Below are positions 10,080 through 31,128 of a stretch of DNA of 64,000 nt, piece after piece. The stretch comes from Sanguibacter hominis ATCC BAA-789 (GTDB lineage Bacteria > Actinomycetota > Actinomycetes > Actinomycetales > Cellulomonadaceae), in the NCBI RefSeq assembly GCF_012396185.1, contig NZ_JAAXOW010000001.1, positions 62,001 through 126,000 on the forward strand, in the 5' to 3' direction. The notes beneath the pieces were generated by a model that saw only the letters and a list, made by a program, of their open reading frames with translations, had not been told where the DNA came from and ran no database searches. The translations under genes were made by a program, and so were the position numbers. Position 1 is the first letter of the stretch. Every line of letters starts with the position of its first letter.

Positions 10080-10988
10080 ATGGCCCGCTCGTCACGTCGA
10101 CAGAACCAGAACCCTCTGACATCGCGACGCCCCGAGCTGCCGGTCGGGCCCGTCGACATCGCGTCGGGCACCGTCGAGCTCGTCGCCGACCGCGACGACC
10201 CGCGCGCGGTCACCGTGCACGTCAACGGCGTGCCGAGCTCCTACGTCCATCTCGACGACCCGACATTCCTCGCCTTCGAGTACATGCAGCAGATGGCATG
10301 CCTCATCGACGCGCTCCCCGCAGGCCCGCTCTCCGTCATCCACGTCGGCGCCGCAGGATGCTCCCTCGCCCGCTACGTCGCCGCCGAACGCCCCGGCAGC
10401 CGCCAGGTCGCCCTCGACCCTGACCCCACGCTCCTCGAGCTCGTCCGAGGATGGTTCGACCTTCCGCGCGCACCCGAGCTGCGGCTCCGGGCACAGGACG
10501 GCCGCGAGGGGCTCGTGAGCCTGCGCGACTCGAGCGCCGACGTCATCATCCGCGACGCGTTCGCCCCCGACACCACGCCGCGCCACCTGACGACGCTCGA
10601 GTTCCTCACCGAGGTCGCGCGCGTGCTGCGTCCCGGCGGGCTCTACCTCGCGAACATCGCCGACCGCGCTCCCCTCACCCTGACCCGCAGCGAGGTCGCG
10701 ACCGCGCTGCAAGCACGCGAGCATGTCGCTGGACGCACCGAGACACGATCGCCGTGGGCCGACCTCGCCGTCGTCGCCGAACCGGCCGTCCTCAAGGGCC
10801 GGCGCTACGGCAACCTCGTCCTCGTCGCGCTCCGCGCCGACGAGGACCTCGCGCCTCGCGACTCCTGGCTGTCCGACGTCGACCGGCCGCTCCGGGTGCT
10901 CCCCGTCCCCGCCACACGCCTGGGTCGCGTCGACCTCACCCAGCTCAGCGCAGCCGCGCAGGCGCTCCTCGACCCCGCTACCGGCTGA
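10080..10988 (+). CDS. Spermidine-synthase-like SAM-fold protein
   Basis: 302 aa. It has a Rossmann methyltransferase fold as in polyamine aminopropyltransferases: SAM-site motif VIHVGAAGCSLARYVA (about residues 86-101), an acidic residue after strand 2 (ALDPDPTLLE), and SSADVIIRDAF at about 151-161, where spermidine synthases carry the catalytic Asp. The N-terminal beta part and C-terminal tail are divergent, and no polyamine genes lie nearby, so the substrate is unknown. It is divergent from the dinB operon, shares the intergenic SOS box, and ends 9 bp before the convergent PAC2 gene. Confidence 0.8.
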   Translation: MARSSRRQNQNPLTSRRPELPVGPVDIASGTVELVADRDDPRAVTVHVNGVPSSYVHLDDPTFLAFEYMQQMACLIDALPAGPLSVIHVGAAGCSLARYVAAERPGSRQVALDPDPTLLELVRGWFDLPRAPELRLRAQDGREGLVSLRDSSADVIIRDAFAPDTTPRHLTTLEFLTEVARVLRPGGLYLANIADRAPLTLTRSEVATALQAREHVAGRTETRSPWADLAVVAEPAVLKGRRYGNLVLVALRADEDLAPRDSWLSDVDRPLRVLPVPATRLGRVDLTQLSAAAQALLDPATG

Positions 10989-22982: not shown

Positions 22983-23591
22983 GTGAGCAACGACCACTAC
23001 TTCACGGCGCAGCCCGCGTCGAAGGACGAGCGCCGGCTCGTGAGCGTCCGCCTGGACGGCCGTGACGTCGAGATCGAGACTGCGGGCGGGATCTTCTCCC
23101 CCGGTCGCCTCGACCTCGGTACGCAGGTGCTGCTCCGCTCGGTGCCGGAGCCTCCGCAGCGCGGGAACCTGCTCGACGTCGGGTGCGGCTGGGGTCCCGT
23201 CGCCCTGACCCTCGCGCTCCAGGCGCCCGAGGCGACCGTGTGGGCGGTCGACGTCAACGAGCGTGCGCTCGACCTCACGCGCCGCAACGCGGCGCGTCTC
23301 GGTCTCGACAACGTCGTCGCGCGCCGGCCCGAGGACGTGCCCGCCGACGTCCGCTTCGCGACGCTGTGGTCGAACCCTCCGATCCGCGTGGGCAAGGACG
23401 TGCTGCACGGCCTCCTGCGGACGTGGCTCCCGCGGCTCGAGCCTGGCGCTGAGGGCTACCTGGTGGTCCAGCGGAACCTCGGCGCGGACTCGTTGCAGGC
23501 GTGGATCGACGCCGAGGTCGCGCCGGGGACGAGCAAGGCCGCCTCGGCCAAGGGCTTCCGCGTCCTGCGGGTGCCCGGACCTGCGTCCTGA
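22983..23591 (+). CDS. RsmC-like class I SAM methyltransferase
   Basis: 202 aa. The N-terminus (DHYFTAQPASKDERRLVSV) is typical of the single-domain RsmC/RlmG-type proteins. The SAM motif is LLDVGCGWGPVALTLA (about residues 62-77) and the catalytic NPP[I/F] motif for N-methylation of a base is WSNPPIRVG. Probable substrate: guanine N2 in 16S rRNA; E. coli RsmC has a second N-terminal domain missing here, so the exact target is uncertain. A -10 TAGGCT lies at 22934 and AGGAGAG before GTG 22983. Confidence 0.88.
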   Translation: MSNDHYFTAQPASKDERRLVSVRLDGRDVEIETAGGIFSPGRLDLGTQVLLRSVPEPPQRGNLLDVGCGWGPVALTLALQAPEATVWAVDVNERALDLTRRNAARLGLDNVVARRPEDVPADVRFATLWSNPPIRVGKDVLHGLLRTWLPRLEPGAEGYLVVQRNLGADSLQAWIDAEVAPGTSKAASAKGFRVLRVPGPAS

Positions 23592-23765
23592 CGTATCACC
23601 GCCGCCCGACGGCACCTCGGTGCGACGCGTCGCCGGGCGACAGAAGTTCACCCCGCCGTCCCCGGACCTCGGCGCGCCAGCGTCAGAGGCCGTCGCTAGT
23701 GTGGGCGCGTCGCTCAGGCGAACGTCCGCACCGCACCCGCACGGGAGCACGACGAGGGAGATCAG

Positions 23766-24239
23766 ATGGGGTTCTTCACCAAGCCAGCAGGAGCAGTCGC
23801 GACCGGGTCCAACACGCCCGTGACCCGCGAGCGCGTCGCCGCGATCCTCGAGGCCGCTGACTGGAACATCGGGGTGGACGGGGACGGCGACGTGTTCGGC
23901 ACGTGGGACGGCCACCTCTTCTACTTCTTCCTCCTCGGCGAGCGCGACGAGATCCTCCAGGTGAGGGGGCGGTGGGCGGGTGACGCCCCGGCCGGCGCCC
24001 AGGCGGAGCTCCTGCCGTTCCTCGACGAGCACCACCGCGACCGCCTCTGGCCCAAGGTCTACACGCGGGAGGAGTCAGAGAGCACCGGTGTCTACGCCGA
24101 GATGTCGACCGACCTCGAGTTCGGGGTCGCGGACGACCAGCTCGAACAGCTCCTCAAGTGCGCGCTCTTCACGAGCCTGCAGCTCTTCGACCGGCTCGCC
24201 GAGGCGTTCCCGCAGTGGGCGCCGGCGGACGCGGAGTGA
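23766..24239 (+). CDS. YbjN domain protein (1), first gene of the HSP90 cassette
   Basis: 157 aa with a single YbjN domain. The conserved core EILQVRGRWAG and DRLWPKVYT recurs in the two other YbjN genes of the window (30071, 30643). The YbjN fold resembles type III secretion chaperones, and the family is linked to stress and motility regulation in enterobacteria; no mechanism is known in Actinobacteria. -10 TAGTGT lies at 23697 and GAGGGAG before ATG 23766. Its TGA overlaps the GTG of the HSP90-like gene (GTGA), so the two products are probably made together. Confidence 0.88.
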   Translation: MGFFTKPAGAVATGSNTPVTRERVAAILEAADWNIGVDGDGDVFGTWDGHLFYFFLLGERDEILQVRGRWAGDAPAGAQAELLPFLDEHHRDRLWPKVYTREESESTGVYAEMSTDLEFGVADDQLEQLLKCALFTSLQLFDRLAEAFPQWAPADAE

Positions 24240-26140
24240 CCGGCTCGGCGTCGGCGGAGGCCTCGAGCGAGACGGCTGCGTTCCAGGTCGACCTGCACGG
24301 CATGGTCGACCTGCTCGCCCGGCACCTGTACTCGAGCCCTCGCGTCTACCTGCGCGAGCTCCTCCAGAACGGTGTCGACGCGCTGACCGCGCGCGCCATG
24401 CACGAGGGGGTGCCAGAGCGTGCAGGAGCGATCTTCCTGACGCCGTGCGCTGACGGTTCCCTCGAGGTGCGCGACGACGGGATCGGGCTCACCCGTGCCG
24501 AGGCGGTCGAGCTGCTCGCCACGATCGGCCGGTCCTCCAAGCGTGACGCCGACCTCGGCGCGGCTCGGAGCGAGTACCTGGGGCAGTTCGGCATCGGTCT
24601 GCTCTCAGCGTTCATGGTTGCCGACGAGATCGAGCTCGTGTCGCGCTCGGCTCGAGACCCGCACGCGCCGGCGATCCGCTGGCGCGGGTTCGCCGACGGG
24701 CGCTACGAGCTGACGGCGATCCGCTCCGACGACCCGGACGTCCCGGGCGGCGGCGGGAGCCTCGTGCGCCTACGCCCTCGGCGGGACATGGAGCACTGGC
24801 TGTCCGTCGAGACCGTGACGGCCCTCGCGACCGACGTCGGCGGGCTGCTGCCGGTGCCTGTCCTCGTCACGACGGAGCTCGAGGACGGATCGGGTACCGT
24901 CCGCCGCCGCGTGAGCGCAGCTCGGCTGCCGTGGTCCCGGCACAGCGCCACGGACCGCGAGCGCGACGCGGCGCTCGTCGACCATGCGGAGCGGACGCTC
25001 GGTTTCACGCCGCTCGCCCGGATCGACCTCGACCTCCCGCTCGCCGGGCTCACCGGTGTCGCATACGTGCTGCCGTCTGCCATCGCGCCGACGAGCACGC
25101 CCCAGCATCGCGTCTACCTGCGCCGCATGCTGCTGTCGGCATCGATCCCGGACCTGTTGCCGCCGTGGGCGTTCTTCGTGCGGTGCGTCGTCGACGTGGG
25201 CGCGCTGCGCCCGACCGCCTCCCGCGAGGGGCTCTACGACGACGAGGTTCTCCTTGCGACCCGGGAGGCCCTCGGGCGCCAGGTGCGTGCGTGGCTCCTC
25301 GAGACTCTCGCCGAGGGGTCGCCGCTCGCGACGGCGTTCCTCCGCACGCACCACCTCGCGGTGCGGGCGCTCGCGCTGCAGGACGACGAGATGCTCGACG
25401 TCGCTGCGCGCGTCCTGCCGTTCGAGTCCACACGAGGCCCGATGACGCTCGCGGCCGCTGCCGAGGCCCTCGACGGCGCGCCCCTGCTGTACACGACGGA
25501 CCTCGAGGAGTTCCGCCGTCTCGCGCCGGTGGCGAGCGCGCAGGACGTGCTCATCGTCAACGGCGGCTACGTCTACGACGGAGACCTCCTCGACCGCGTC
25601 GCGCGCCGCTTCCCGGCGTGGCGCGCGGCGCGGGTCCGGGCGGAGGACGTCGCGCACGAGCTCGAGGAGGTCGCGCCGGTGCGTGAGCTCGAGGTCGCGG
25701 ACGCCTTGCGTGACGCGTCGGCAGCGCTCCACGAGGCGGGGTGCGACGTCGTGCTGCGGCGCTTCGAGCCCGTCACGCTCCCTGCTGTCCTGCTGCGTGA
25801 CGCCGAGGGCGACCACGCCCGTGAGGCGCAGCGGACGGCTGAGTCGGCTGACGACGTCTGGGGCGGGATCGTCGCGGGGCTCACGGCGCCCGCTCCACCG
25901 CGCCGGCTCGTCCTCAACGACGCCAATCCGACCGTCCGTGCCCTGCTCGCCGGGACGGCGGGACCGGTGCGCGACGCGGGCACCCACGCGCTCTACGTCA
26001 CGAGCCTGCTGTCGTCGGGCCGCCCTCTCCACGACGCCGAGGCACGCCTGCTCGACGGCGCTCTCACGACGCTTCTCGACAGTGCGTTGCACACCGCACC
26101 AGACCAGACCACGCAGGACGACCGGGAGGACAACCCGTGA
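24236..26140 (+). CDS. HSP90-family protein (divergent HtpG-like chaperone)
   Basis: 634 aa, similar in length to HtpG. The GHKL ATPase boxes are present: ELLQNGVDA (residues 41-49, N box), DDGIGL (80-85, G1) and GQFGIGLLS (116-124, G2). The middle domain keeps LLPPWAFFVRCVVD and TASREGLYDD, where the Arg of the catalytic loop is retained but the preceding Asn of HtpG (LN-x-SRE) is Thr. Overall identity to true HtpG is visibly low. GTG 24236 overlaps the YbjN stop, and its own stop overlaps the TPR gene start (both GTGA). The cassette suggests a chaperone with dedicated partners. ATPase activity is inferred. Confidence 0.88.
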   Translation: MTGSASAEASSETAAFQVDLHGMVDLLARHLYSSPRVYLRELLQNGVDALTARAMHEGVPERAGAIFLTPCADGSLEVRDDGIGLTRAEAVELLATIGRSSKRDADLGAARSEYLGQFGIGLLSAFMVADEIELVSRSARDPHAPAIRWRGFADGRYELTAIRSDDPDVPGGGGSLVRLRPRRDMEHWLSVETVTALATDVGGLLPVPVLVTTELEDGSGTVRRRVSAARLPWSRHSATDRERDAALVDHAERTLGFTPLARIDLDLPLAGLTGVAYVLPSAIAPTSTPQHRVYLRRMLLSASIPDLLPPWAFFVRCVVDVGALRPTASREGLYDDEVLLATREALGRQVRAWLLETLAEGSPLATAFLRTHHLAVRALALQDDEMLDVAARVLPFESTRGPMTLAAAAEALDGAPLLYTTDLEEFRRLAPVASAQDVLIVNGGYVYDGDLLDRVARRFPAWRAARVRAEDVAHELEEVAPVRELEVADALRDASAALHEAGCDVVLRRFEPVTLPAVLLRDAEGDHAREAQRTAESADDVWGGIVAGLTAPAPPRRLVLNDANPTVRALLAGTAGPVRDAGTHALYVTSLLSSGRPLHDAEARLLDGALTTLLDSALHTAPDQTTQDDREDNP

Positions 26141-28074
26141 CCAGGACGAGCCAGGAAGCCGAGGCAGCCCTCGGTCGCACGAACGCGCTGCCGTACGGCG
26201 TCGCAAGGACCGCCGCGACGCTGGCCGAGGTCGAGCGGATCGAGGCGGAAGGGCCCGACGAGGTCCGCGCCTACGCGTACACGTCCCTCGTCGACGCCTA
26301 CGTGTGGGGAGGCGACGTCGCGAAGGCGTACGTCCCGTTCACGCGTGCGCTGCGCCTCTACGACGAGCGCCCCGACCTGTTCGACGCCTACGACTCGCAC
26401 GCCCTGTTCTGGTCGTTCAAGTGGATGGTCGGGCACCTGTCCGACTTCCCCGAGATCTCGGTCGCCCAGATCACGTCGACGCTCGAGGACATGGCGCGGC
26501 GGTTCGCGGTAGCCGGCCACGGGATGAACGCCGTCGAGCTCAGCCGGTTCCAGTGGGCGCGAGCCCGCGGCGCCGCCCCTGAGGAGGTCGCGGCAGCCTA
26601 CGAGACCTGGGTCGCCACGCCGCGCGACGACTACTCGCAGTGCGAGGCGTGCGAGCCGGGAGACCGGGCCGCCTACCTCTTCGAGGTGGGGCGCCGGGAC
26701 GAGGGCATCCGCCTGCTCGAGACGGTGCTGACGGGGTCGCCCTCGTGCGCGACAGAGCCGGGCGACATGCTCTCGCACCTCCAGCTGGCCTACCTCGACG
26801 CGGGCGACGCGGACGCTGTCGTCCGCACGCACCGCCGCGGCCTGCGCCACCTCGACGGGGAGACGACTCTCGACGCGCCGACGGCGCGGCACGTCGAGCT
26901 GCTCGCCCGCACCGGCAACCACGGCCGCGCGCTCCGCATGCTCGAGAAGGTCGCGGGGGCGCTGCTCGAGGCGGACTCCCCGGGCGAGCGGCTGAGCGTC
27001 CTCACGCACGTCGGCGTCGGCGTCCGCGTCATCGCCATGGCCGAGCCGTCGACCCCGGTCTCGCTGCCCGGGGTCCCGGCGTCCTCGGTCGACGAGCTCG
27101 CGGCGTGGATCGACGCCGAGGCTCGCGAGCTCGCTCGAGCCTTCGACGCGCGCAACGGCAACGACGCTGCCTCCGCCAGGCTCGCCCGCTCCCGCGACAG
27201 GGACGTGCGGACGCTCCGGGTGGACCTCGACGTCCTGTCGACCAGCGCCGCACCCCACGAGCACGGCCCGGCCCAGACCGGGTCAGCAGAGCCCGGCAGC
27301 GAGAGTGCCGACAGCCTCGACAACGCCCACACGCTCCTCGCGCAGGCCGAGTCGCTCGTGGCCGACGACCGGGTCGCGGCCGCGCGGGTCTACGCCCAGG
27401 CGTCCGCCCTCGCCGAGGCCGAGGGAGACCTCGAGACAGCAGGGCTCGCGCTGGCCGAGGCCGCTCAGCTCGCGGCGCTCGAGGACGACGCCGTCGGCGC
27501 GACCGGTGCGTTCCGACGCGCTCTCGCGCTCCTGAGGGCAGGCGGCGCCGCCCCCCGCACCGCGGGCCCCGTCGCGCGGGCCGCCGCGGCCGTCGCCCCG
27601 GAACGCGGAGACCAGGAAGCCGTGCTCCAGTTCGTCGACCGTGTCCTCATCGAGATCGCGGGCCAGCAGCCCGACGAGCCGGCACCGGGGCACGGCACGA
27701 GCCTCACCGCTCGTGACAGCGCACAGCTCGCGCTCGAGGCCGCCGAGCTGCGGGACACCAGGGCGCGCCTGCTCGCGACGCTCGGGAACCTCGATGAGGC
27801 AGCGGAGATCGCGGAGGACGTCGCCGCCGAGATGGCCGGGCTCGGTCGCACGGGTGACGCCGCCCACGCCTTCTGGCTCGCTGGCCGGTGCCGGGCGCAG
27901 AGCGACCCGGAGGCTGCGGTCGCCCTGCTCGAGTCAGCCGTGGAGGGTTTCACCATGATCCGTGGCGAACGGTCCAGCCGGGGCGCGGCGTCGGACGAGC
28001 TCGTCGAGCTCCTCACCGCCCTCGGTCGCGAGGACGACGCCGCCGCGGTGCTGAGCAGGCTGATGGCGACCTGA
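26137..28074 (+). CDS. TPR-repeat protein coupled to the HSP90-like gene
   Basis: 645 aa, largely helical, with two sets of TPR-like units: residues about 40-270 (AYAYTSLVDAYVWGGDVAKAYVPFTRAL) and about 385-640 (LLAQAESLVADDRVAAARVYAQASALAEAEGD, and later ALLESAVEGFTMI). A Cys-x2-Cys (QCEAC) near residue 168 sits between helices. TPR proteins are classic HSP90 partners in eukaryotes; here the GTG overlaps the HSP90-like stop codon, which supports a joint complex, though eukaryotic TPR clamps bind an MEEVD tail absent here. The function is unknown. The two sets are separated by a Ser/Glu/Gly-rich linker (about residues 365-390). Confidence 0.82.
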   Translation: MTRTSQEAEAALGRTNALPYGVARTAATLAEVERIEAEGPDEVRAYAYTSLVDAYVWGGDVAKAYVPFTRALRLYDERPDLFDAYDSHALFWSFKWMVGHLSDFPEISVAQITSTLEDMARRFAVAGHGMNAVELSRFQWARARGAAPEEVAAAYETWVATPRDDYSQCEACEPGDRAAYLFEVGRRDEGIRLLETVLTGSPSCATEPGDMLSHLQLAYLDAGDADAVVRTHRRGLRHLDGETTLDAPTARHVELLARTGNHGRALRMLEKVAGALLEADSPGERLSVLTHVGVGVRVIAMAEPSTPVSLPGVPASSVDELAAWIDAEARELARAFDARNGNDAASARLARSRDRDVRTLRVDLDVLSTSAAPHEHGPAQTGSAEPGSESADSLDNAHTLLAQAESLVADDRVAAARVYAQASALAEAEGDLETAGLALAEAAQLAALEDDAVGATGAFRRALALLRAGGAAPRTAGPVARAAAAVAPERGDQEAVLQFVDRVLIEIAGQQPDEPAPGHGTSLTARDSAQLALEAAELRDTRARLLATLGNLDEAAEIAEDVAAEMAGLGRTGDAAHAFWLAGRCRAQSDPEAAVALLESAVEGFTMIRGERSSRGAASDELVELLTALGREDDAAAVLSRLMAT

Positions 28075-28085
28075 CCAGCCCGCCG

Positions 28086-29024
28086 TCACGCGGGTTCGGA
28101 GGTCAGCCCCGCCCGCAGCTCGGCCAGGTCGACGTGCCCGTGCGCGACGAGCACCGCCGGTCCCGCGAGCTCGACGCGCTGGTCCGGCAGCATCCGGACC
28201 CGCACCCTCCCGCCAGGGACGTCGACGAACCACGTGCTCGGCGCACCCGCGCCGGCCCACGCCGCGACCGCGAGCGCAGCCGCGCATGCGCCGGTGCCGC
28301 ACGACCGCGTCTCGCCCACGCCACGCTCGTGGACGCGCATGCGCACGGGCCCGACGGTCGTACCGCCGCCGTCGTGCGTCTCCGCGCGCGGCACCACGTA
28401 CTCGACGTTCGTCCCGGCGGGCGGCACCGGCGCGACCTCGGGGATGCTGGTGAGGTCGAGCCCGTCCAGCTCGGCGTCCGTCGCGAGCGCGACGACCGTG
28501 TGCGGGTTGCCCATGTCGACGCTCAGCGCGACCCGTACGCCGTCGAGCCCCGTCGTGCGCACCTGCGCGTCGTAGCCGTCGGCGAGCGCCTGCGTCCCGC
28601 CCGTGAGGCGCCACTCCCCCATCTCGACCGCGTACTGGTCGCCCTCGCGCCGGACGCGACGCACTCCGGCGCGCGTGCCGATCGCGAGCGCGCGCCCGTC
28701 CGCGAGGTCCGCGAGGCCGAGGTGCTCGAGGAAACGCACGAAGACGCGCACGCCGTTGCCGCACATCTCGGCGATCGAACCGTCGGCGTTGCGGTAGTCC
28801 ATGAACCACTGCGCGTCCGGGGCGTCCGCGAGCGCGGCGCGTCCCTCCGGGAGAGCGGAGCTCGGCACGACGCGGATGAGGCCGTCGCCCCCGATGCCGG
28901 CACGACGGTCGGTCAGGGCGCGGACGTCGTCGGGCGTCAGCGCGAGCTGGTCGTCCGGATCGGCGACGAGGACGAAGTCGTTCTGCGTCCCGTGCCCCTT
29001 GGAGAAGGCCAGCTGCTGCGTCAT
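28086..29024 (-). CDS. dapF: Diaminopimelate epimerase
   Basis: 312 aa. It converts LL- to meso-diaminopimelate for peptidoglycan and lysine. Both catalytic cysteines are present: Cys88 in EMCGNGVRV and Cys242 in RSCGTGACAAAL, in the two halves of the pseudo-symmetric fold. The start KGHGTQNDFVLV matches the family. ATG 29024 overlaps the miaA stop (ATGA), so it is translated from the miaA transcript, a conserved actinobacterial pair. It is convergent with the TPR gene, with only 11 bp between. Confidence 0.97.
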   Translation of the reverse strand: MTQQLAFSKGHGTQNDFVLVADPDDQLALTPDDVRALTDRRAGIGGDGLIRVVPSSALPEGRAALADAPDAQWFMDYRNADGSIAEMCGNGVRVFVRFLEHLGLADLADGRALAIGTRAGVRRVRREGDQYAVEMGEWRLTGGTQALADGYDAQVRTTGLDGVRVALSVDMGNPHTVVALATDAELDGLDLTSIPEVAPVPPAGTNVEYVVPRAETHDGGGTTVGPVRMRVHERGVGETRSCGTGACAAALAVAAWAGAGAPSTWFVDVPGGRVRVRMLPDQRVELAGPAVLVAHGHVDLAELRAGLTSEPA

Positions 29025-30070: not shown

Positions 30071-30646
30071 ATGCCCTTCTGGACGCGCGACTCCCGCCGC
30101 GGGCCGTCCGAGGAGCCCGACAGCGCAGGTCAGGACGCCTCGGCCGGTCCCACCCTGTCTCCGCTCGACCTTCCGGACGAGCACCCGACCACGACCGATC
30201 CCACCGTCTTCCCGCGACCGCTCACGATCGAACGCGTCGCAGCCGACCTGCGCCGACGGGGTGCCGGGTTCTCGGTCGCTGAACGGACCGGCGAGCTGAC
30301 CGCCCTGTGGGGGACGCGCTCGTTCGTCCTGTCCACGCTCGGTGAGCCGCCCACGATCCTCCAGGTGCGCGGCCAGTGGAACCGTGAGGCGTCGATCGAC
30401 CACCTCGACGAGATCCTGACGTTCTGCAACGAGTGGAACATGCAGCGCTTCTGGCCCAAGTGCTACGCCCAGGTCCGGGACGACGGCGCTGTCATGGTCC
30501 GCGCGGAGAACGCCCAGGACCTTCACGAGGGGGTCAACGACGCCCAGCTCGCGCAGCTCGTCAGCTCTGCCTTCGCCACGACCGCGACGTTCTTCGCCGG
30601 GCTCGACGCGCGGTTCCCCGACCCGCTCCTCGAGGCGGGGTCATGA
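30071..30646 (+). CDS. YbjN domain protein (2)
   Basis: 191 aa. A polar, Pro/Asp-rich N-terminal extension of about 50 residues precedes the YbjN domain (TILQVRGQWNREASIDHLDE, RFWPKCYAQ). Its stop overlaps the ATG of the next YbjN gene (ATGA), so the two paralogues are translationally coupled. It is divergent from miaA with overlapping promoters. Function is unknown. Confidence 0.86.
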   Translation: MPFWTRDSRRGPSEEPDSAGQDASAGPTLSPLDLPDEHPTTTDPTVFPRPLTIERVAADLRRRGAGFSVAERTGELTALWGTRSFVLSTLGEPPTILQVRGQWNREASIDHLDEILTFCNEWNMQRFWPKCYAQVRDDGAVMVRAENAQDLHEGVNDAQLAQLVSSAFATTATFFAGLDARFPDPLLEAGS

Positions 30647-31128
30647 GGGGGCTCCCGTTCCGGCGTCGGGCGGACGAGCCGCAGGCGTCGGGGCCCGTCC
30701 CGATCCCGCTCACGCGCGCACGCATCGCGGCATACCTGGACAGCGAAGGCTACAAGCACGTCATGGACGACGACGGCGACCTCGCCGCGAGCTGGAACGG
30801 AAACCCGTTCTGGCTCATCGTCTCGGGTGAGCGGGAGGAGGTGCTCCAGGTACGGGGCCGCTGGGCGACCACGCTCCCCCTCGCCGCCCGCGCCTCTCTC
30901 CTGCACGTCATCAACGGCTGGAACCGGGACCGCTTCTGGCCCAAGGCCTATGTCCGCGACGAGGGCGGCCTGCTCGCGGTCTACGGCGAGTGGTCGATCG
31001 ACCTTGCTCACGGCGTCACGGACGAGCAGCTCGGCAGGTCCGTCCTGACGGGGCTGGCGACCACGCTCCAGCTGTTCGAGCACGTCGCAGCGACTCTGCC
31101 GCCGTCCGACTCACCTGACGCGGACTGA
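30643..31128 (+). CDS. YbjN domain protein (3)
   Basis: 161 aa with little beyond the YbjN domain: EVLQVRGRWAT and RDRFWPKAYVRDEGG. It resembles YbjN (1) at 23766 more than its neighbour: both share the order domain start LTRARIAAYLD/VTRERVAAILE, a D-D-G-D turn, and a WNG/WDG motif. This suggests duplication within the region. It is coupled to YbjN (2) and convergent with miaB. Confidence 0.86.
   Translation: MRGLPFRRRADEPQASGPVPIPLTRARIAAYLDSEGYKHVMDDDGDLAASWNGNPFWLIVSGEREEVLQVRGRWATTLPLAARASLLHVINGWNRDRFWPKAYVRDEGGLLAVYGEWSIDLAHGVTDEQLGRSVLTGLATTLQLFEHVAATLPPSDSPDAD

Follow-up and report, generated by a model that had tools for sequence, protein, structure and literature searches.

A candidate HSP90–co-chaperone operon outside the HtpG lineage in the actinobacterium Sanguibacter hominis

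An HSP90 lineage beside canonical HtpG is already known from the main texts of Chen et al. (2006; PMC1525184) and Press et al. (2013; PMC3708813), the former reporting that S. coelicolor (HTPG2, 615 aa) and B. fragilis (HTPG2, 588 aa) each have two HTPG copies from different groups and the latter leaving hsp90B and hsp90C aside. No mention of a linked partner was found in either paper, the string "tpr" occurring 0 times in both main texts. The HSP90 described here probably belongs to the lineage termed HTPG Group C in the first paper and hsp90C in the second, an assignment drawn from protein length and from genomes of the phylum that carry both types. Among the literature matches listed, whose coverage leaves most subscription journals outside, no description was found of the HSP90-partner pair, of the distribution of the partner's conserved core or of the YbjN clade reported below.

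Operon layout and the HSP90 protein

In the window, by which we mean the whole 64-kb stretch of DNA analyzed, the operon consists of three genes whose features all lie on the plus strand. The gene for a YbjN-domain protein (23766..24239; ATG start, 157 aa) ends in a GTGA (24236..24239) that holds both its stop codon and the proposed GTG start of the HSP90 gene (24236..26140; 634 aa), and a second GTGA (26137..26140) combines the HSP90 stop with the proposed GTG start of the gene for a helical-repeat (TPR-type) partner (26137..28074; 645 aa). Although we infer the GTG start codons of the two downstream genes, the three open reading frames and both 4-base junctions on which the original prediction was built were found in the sequence. 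A 4-base HSP90/partner overlap is likewise possible at 58 of the 85 loci with a phmmer-identified downstream partner (see below).

The middle product had been proposed to be a divergent HSP90 with ATP-site boxes, part of a module distinct from HtpG, and the profile searches agree with this proposal. The protein is a clear member of the NF010683/PRK14083 family (697.2 bits against a curated cut-off of 455), whereas its score against the canonical HtpG model NF003555 is 131.8 bits, well under the cut-off of 371. In the HSP90 tree, NF010683-type proteins are split from 10 presumed canonical HtpG sequences with 100 SH-aLRT, and the canonical Group A signatures IGQFGVGFY and PLN are replaced in the window protein by LGQFGIGLL and PTASRE. 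The Pfam families HATPase_c_3 and HSP90 match it barely above their cut-offs. What it has in common with canonical HtpG is the superfamily, the predicted three-domain fold and the ATP-site residues; the differences lie in the model scores, in the separate clade and in the partner gene, which was not found at 20 presumed HtpG loci (see below).

The putative ATP site (24356..24598) comprises E41, N45, D80 and the G116-x-F-G119-x-G121 of a GQFGIG loop, all of which (E41, N45, D80, G116, G119 and G121) are invariant among 27 aligned HSP90s, the window's included. The catalytic loop of the middle domain, S329-R330-E331 (25220..25228), is present as well, with R330 invariant and S329 and E331 conserved in at least 90% of the 27 sequences. 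We take the roles of these residues and of the catalytic loop to be those established for Hsp90 and GHKL proteins generally. A structure model (pLDDT 87.4) shows a full-length HSP90 fold in which the N-terminal, middle and C-terminal dimerization domains are all covered. The pan-HSP90 signatures given in Table 4 of Chen et al. (Y, REL, N, D, G.G, GQFG and SRE; PMC1525184) were all located, at Y32, REL 40-42, N45, D48, G82 and G84, GQFG 116-119 and SRE 329-331. The ATPase-site residues are intact, and the protein is predicted to be an ATP-driven clamp chaperone.

Canonical HtpG was not found in the window's genome, where PF00183 likewise returned no second HSP90. A weak NF010683 match (33.5 bits) at G000:C6:50102-50440 lies inside a 1114-aa frame; long frames of this kind occur in many relatives and perhaps encode a sacsin-like GHKL ATPase. 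Separately, the HtpG model matched only twice in a Glycomyces genome (G456), each time below its cut-off.

Linkage and distribution of the HSP90-partner pair

Linkage was evaluated at 92 loci, consisting of 80 kept from 90 relatives and 12 further regions that include the window's own. A phmmer search with the window TPR protein placed a homologue downstream of HSP90 on the same strand at 85 of these loci, and a profile search added L092 and L118, resulting in 87 of 92, the window's own among them. Because the profile was built from those same phmmer matches, the control at HtpG loci is the meaningful test. The partner was found at 0 of 20 presumed canonical HtpG loci (defined as matches to NF010683 below its cut-off) compared to 10 of 10 NF010683-type loci (window included), in a control that is modest in reach, since the flanks extended 1.5 kb from the matched stretch and so reached about 1 kb or less past the HtpG gene itself, and since L025 and L029, two of the 20 loci, were clipped by a contig end. 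The exceptions among the 92 are L101, L112 and L116, where HSP90 has no adjacent partner (L112 offering only 1.6 kb past the gene), L117, where the partner is present but convergent to HSP90, and L115, where the sequence ends within HSP90.

In a sample of 150 genomes from the window's family, 59 carry an NF010683 HSP90 over the cut-off. A search for the partner core (aa 1-355 of the window protein, at E 1e-8 or lower) matched exactly these 59 and 0 of the 91 HSP90-negative genomes. All 59 have a core copy next to HSP90, on its strand and downstream of it, the matched stretches lying 27-233 bp apart; two of the 62 core matches obtained in all, both in G296, are on a different contig from HSP90. 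A Paenibacillus-type family of 118 genomes showed the HSP90 over cut-off in 42 and the core in 41, adjacent in all 41 (9-69 bp between matched stretches) and absent from the 76 genomes in which no HSP90 exceeded the cut-off, G494 being the sole genome of the 42 with HSP90 and no core. The survey of co-occurrence therefore shows that HSP90 and the TPR-type protein, in keeping with the original prediction, are not independently distributed: NF010683 HSP90 almost always comes with the partner core, and no genome in the two family samples was found to have the core but not this HSP90. More than one core copy is present in L123, G296, G321, G480, G516, G571 and G587, mostly in tandem beside one HSP90.

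We next consider readings of this linkage other than a functional one. If the three genes were independent housekeeping genes that are simply co-inherited, parallel gene trees would be expected, and the HSP90 and core trees are indeed alike (Mantel r 0.79 across 41 loci, with 0 of 2000 permutations as high), a likeness that shared descent alone can give. Such a synteny-only explanation is nevertheless already disfavored, and we regard it as highly improbable, since the genomic setting of the pair differs across 23 lineages, where no further neighbor is widely shared, and HSP90 and partner are present, absent or lost together. Clustering of the frames within 6-8 kb of HSP90 (28 of the 92 loci, representing 23 lineages; 14 largest clusters) placed HSP90 in 23 lineages, the partner in 22 and YbjN in 9, while the remaining large clusters appear to be antisense or shadow frames of these genes or to reflect synteny among three close relatives.

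The pair is sparse and patchy. At phylum scale the HSP90 exceeded its cut-off in 10 of 296 genomes, the window's own counted, with carriers in Actinomycetota, Pseudomonadota, Bacillota, Planctomycetota and Bacteroidota and at least one partner locus in each; within a single genus (g1) it is present in 3 of 6 genomes. Decay was also observed. In G584 the HSP90 is truncated and there is no core, and in the Oerskovia-like genome G380 (L127, G380:C11:254000-268000) an HSP90 remnant corresponding to residues 14-37 of an Oerskovia HSP90 abuts a partner remnant of residues 403-652, with YbjN left whole; a single deletion there seems to have taken most of HSP90 and the partner core together. Both the patchiness inside one genus and these scars are what might be expected of a stress-sensing or defense module, in which the HSP90-TPR pair would activate an effector or guard a pathway. 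We judge this very unlikely, however, since the only PADLOC matches were weak ones to the shared ATPase fold, the largest neighbor clusters contained no recurring effector or mobile gene, and the window operon sits amid genes that, from their translations by eye, look like housekeeping genes of the dapF, miaA, miaB and hflX types. A defense system was rejected as a candidate on the PADLOC result.

The partner core and a candidate co-chaperone

The structure model of the partner (pLDDT 89.7, pTM 0.66, 29 helices) predicts a helical-hairpin solenoid. The only Pfam match over cut-off is SNAP (residues 533-617), and TPR_12 (residues 541-605) stays below its cut-off; both fall in the C-terminal TPR array (aa 392-645; 27310..28071), an extension seen in Actinomycetota. 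What is conserved with HSP90 is not this Pfam-visible array but the N-terminal part of about 350 residues, an unnamed domain (aa 1-355; 26137..27201) that constitutes the entire partner in Paenibacillus, Undibacterium, Albitalea, Planctomycetota (L123) and Bacteroidota loci. Within this core, Pfam TPR matches were sub-threshold only in the window core and five short forms, and one short form had none. The description of the partner as a large TPR protein thus holds for the modeled solenoid and the C-terminal array and fails for the conserved core, which is under all Pfam TPR cut-offs. A CxxC...C motif (C169-x2-C172 ... C204; 26641..26748) is conserved in the core in at least 90% of 24 aligned sequences, and the conserved cysteines are absent from the Glycomyces partner at L092. 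A fold search with the full partner returned matches taken up by the C-terminal array, none of them informative on the core.

The partner had further been likened to the class that serves eukaryotic HSP90, and this comparison was not supported. The resemblance consists in a predicted HSP90 ATPase together with a helical-repeat protein; the differences are that the conserved part here is the unnamed domain, that coupling is by operon, and that the HSP90 has no MEEVD tail. The window protein ends in DDREDNP, and inspection by eye of the 27 aligned sequences, whose tails are short and variable, showed neither MEEVD nor EEVD there. Docking through MEEVD is unlikely because this tail is absent, and we rejected it as disfavored by the sequences.

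Our preferred explanation, which we consider probable from the comparative sequence data, is that the operon encodes an ATP-driven HSP90 paralogue outside HtpG and a dedicated co-chaperone, with a lineage-specific, holdase-like YbjN helper. In this scheme the helical-repeat core of the partner, rather than an MEEVD tail, would mediate docking on the HSP90 dimer, and the partner would either select clients or adjust the ATPase and the clamp cycle of HSP90. In Actinomycetota, the C-terminal TPR array may widen the reach to clients or adaptors, YbjN, from a family with the type III secretion chaperone fold, may hold unfolded segments without ATP and hand them to HSP90, and translational coupling through the overlaps would maintain stoichiometry. 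With this pair one can test whether an HSP90 of bacteria may possess a helper protein of its own, and if the partner is an hsp90C co-chaperone, the two genes would form a compact system, without the complications of eukaryotes, for studying HSP90/co-chaperone co-evolution and for searching for clients.

Several observations count against the co-chaperone reading, namely the HSP90s without an adjacent partner (L101, L112 and L116) or without a core (G494), the convergent arrangement at L117 and the unlinked cores of G296. The Fisher value for co-occurrence, moreover, carries no phylogenetic correction, and the products of a conserved operon can act in one pathway without binding each other. The one-way dependency, in which the partner needs HSP90 and HSP90 can stand alone, fits a co-chaperone and an obligate client alike. 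The HSP90 might accordingly be a specialized chaperone with essentially one client, either the linked helical-repeat protein or a complex nucleated by it, and a client in need of its chaperone would produce the pattern observed, with the core absent where HSP90 is absent (0/91 and 0/76) and HSP90 sometimes alone. We find this unlikely, given that some lineages keep HSP90 without the partner and that the core is short, confidently predicted on its own chain and marked by a near-invariant set of residues. A more far-reaching version of the co-chaperone reading, which we put forward only tentatively and hold to be rather doubtful as a whole, is that a separate class of HSP90 co-chaperone arose in bacteria: a helical-repeat protein of about 350 aa with a cysteine motif, near-obligate partner of a non-HtpG HSP90 in at least five phyla and docking in a manner unlike MEEVD-clamp proteins, in which CxxC...C would be a metal or redox switch and to which a YbjN holdase was added in one actinobacterial branch, giving a three-step client relay.

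YbjN as a probable lineage-specific addition and operon regulation

The YbjN domain predicted for the first product is well supported (PF10722, 75.1 bits, gathering cut-off 22, E 7e-21), placing it in the family of AmyR and DR1245. In the available part of the AmyR paper, YbjN proteins are proposed to bind other proteins non-enzymatically, and it is solely in fold that they resemble type III secretion chaperones (PMC5398634); YbjN has also been placed among peptide-binding "TY-chaperones" (PMC9503650, in the portion available). A role in type III secretion was rejected, as no computed result indicates a link.

The window YbjN differs from the family at large in that its group is tied to HSP90 and stands apart from two further YbjN genes of the window (30071-31128, plus strand), which lie between miaA- and miaB-like genes and form orthologue groups of their own (22 loci each). 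In the YbjN tree, a branch of moderate support (84/72; 88% of 200 bootstrap trees) separates the 42 linked copies from these two groups. YbjN is present in the flanking DNA covered at 42 of the 92 loci, with 39 linked copies upstream of HSP90 and three after the partner (L077-L079). At L077 the partner and YbjN form one 961-aa open frame (L077:11817-14702), a fusion seen in one Propionibacteriaceae metagenome contig, where a sequencing error is possible; in its relatives L078 and L079 the two are separate genes. One clade of the HSP90 tree (100 SH-aLRT) has 19 rows, of which 18 show YbjN in the DNA covered around the locus, compared to 0 of the other 26. Since YbjN is confined to one HSP90 clade, an already existing HSP90-partner pair probably gained it a single time, as a later, dedicated addition within one actinobacterial branch. 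The suggestion that YbjN is an equal, dedicated member of the module is therefore upheld as regards the dedicated paralogue and not as regards equal standing, and an obligatory role was rejected on the same distribution.

Heat-shock control is unsupported, because the 64-kb window contains no match to CIRCE and its only HAIR-like matches, two with 3 mismatches each, lie away from the operon at 10514 and 17425, a number within chance, as 21 of 100 shuffles have as many. No sigma-70-type promoter or terminator was matched in 23400-28400, by a scan that has little power for actinobacteria.

With respect to YbjN copy number, at least three YbjN genes are present in 41 of the 59 HSP90-positive genomes of the window's family, compared to 19 of the 91 HSP90-negative genomes. 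Finally, the three YbjN copies of L053, an assembly titled Sphaerisporangium cinnabarinum ATCC 31213, group inside Cellulosimicrobium, and this assembly is probably mislabelled.
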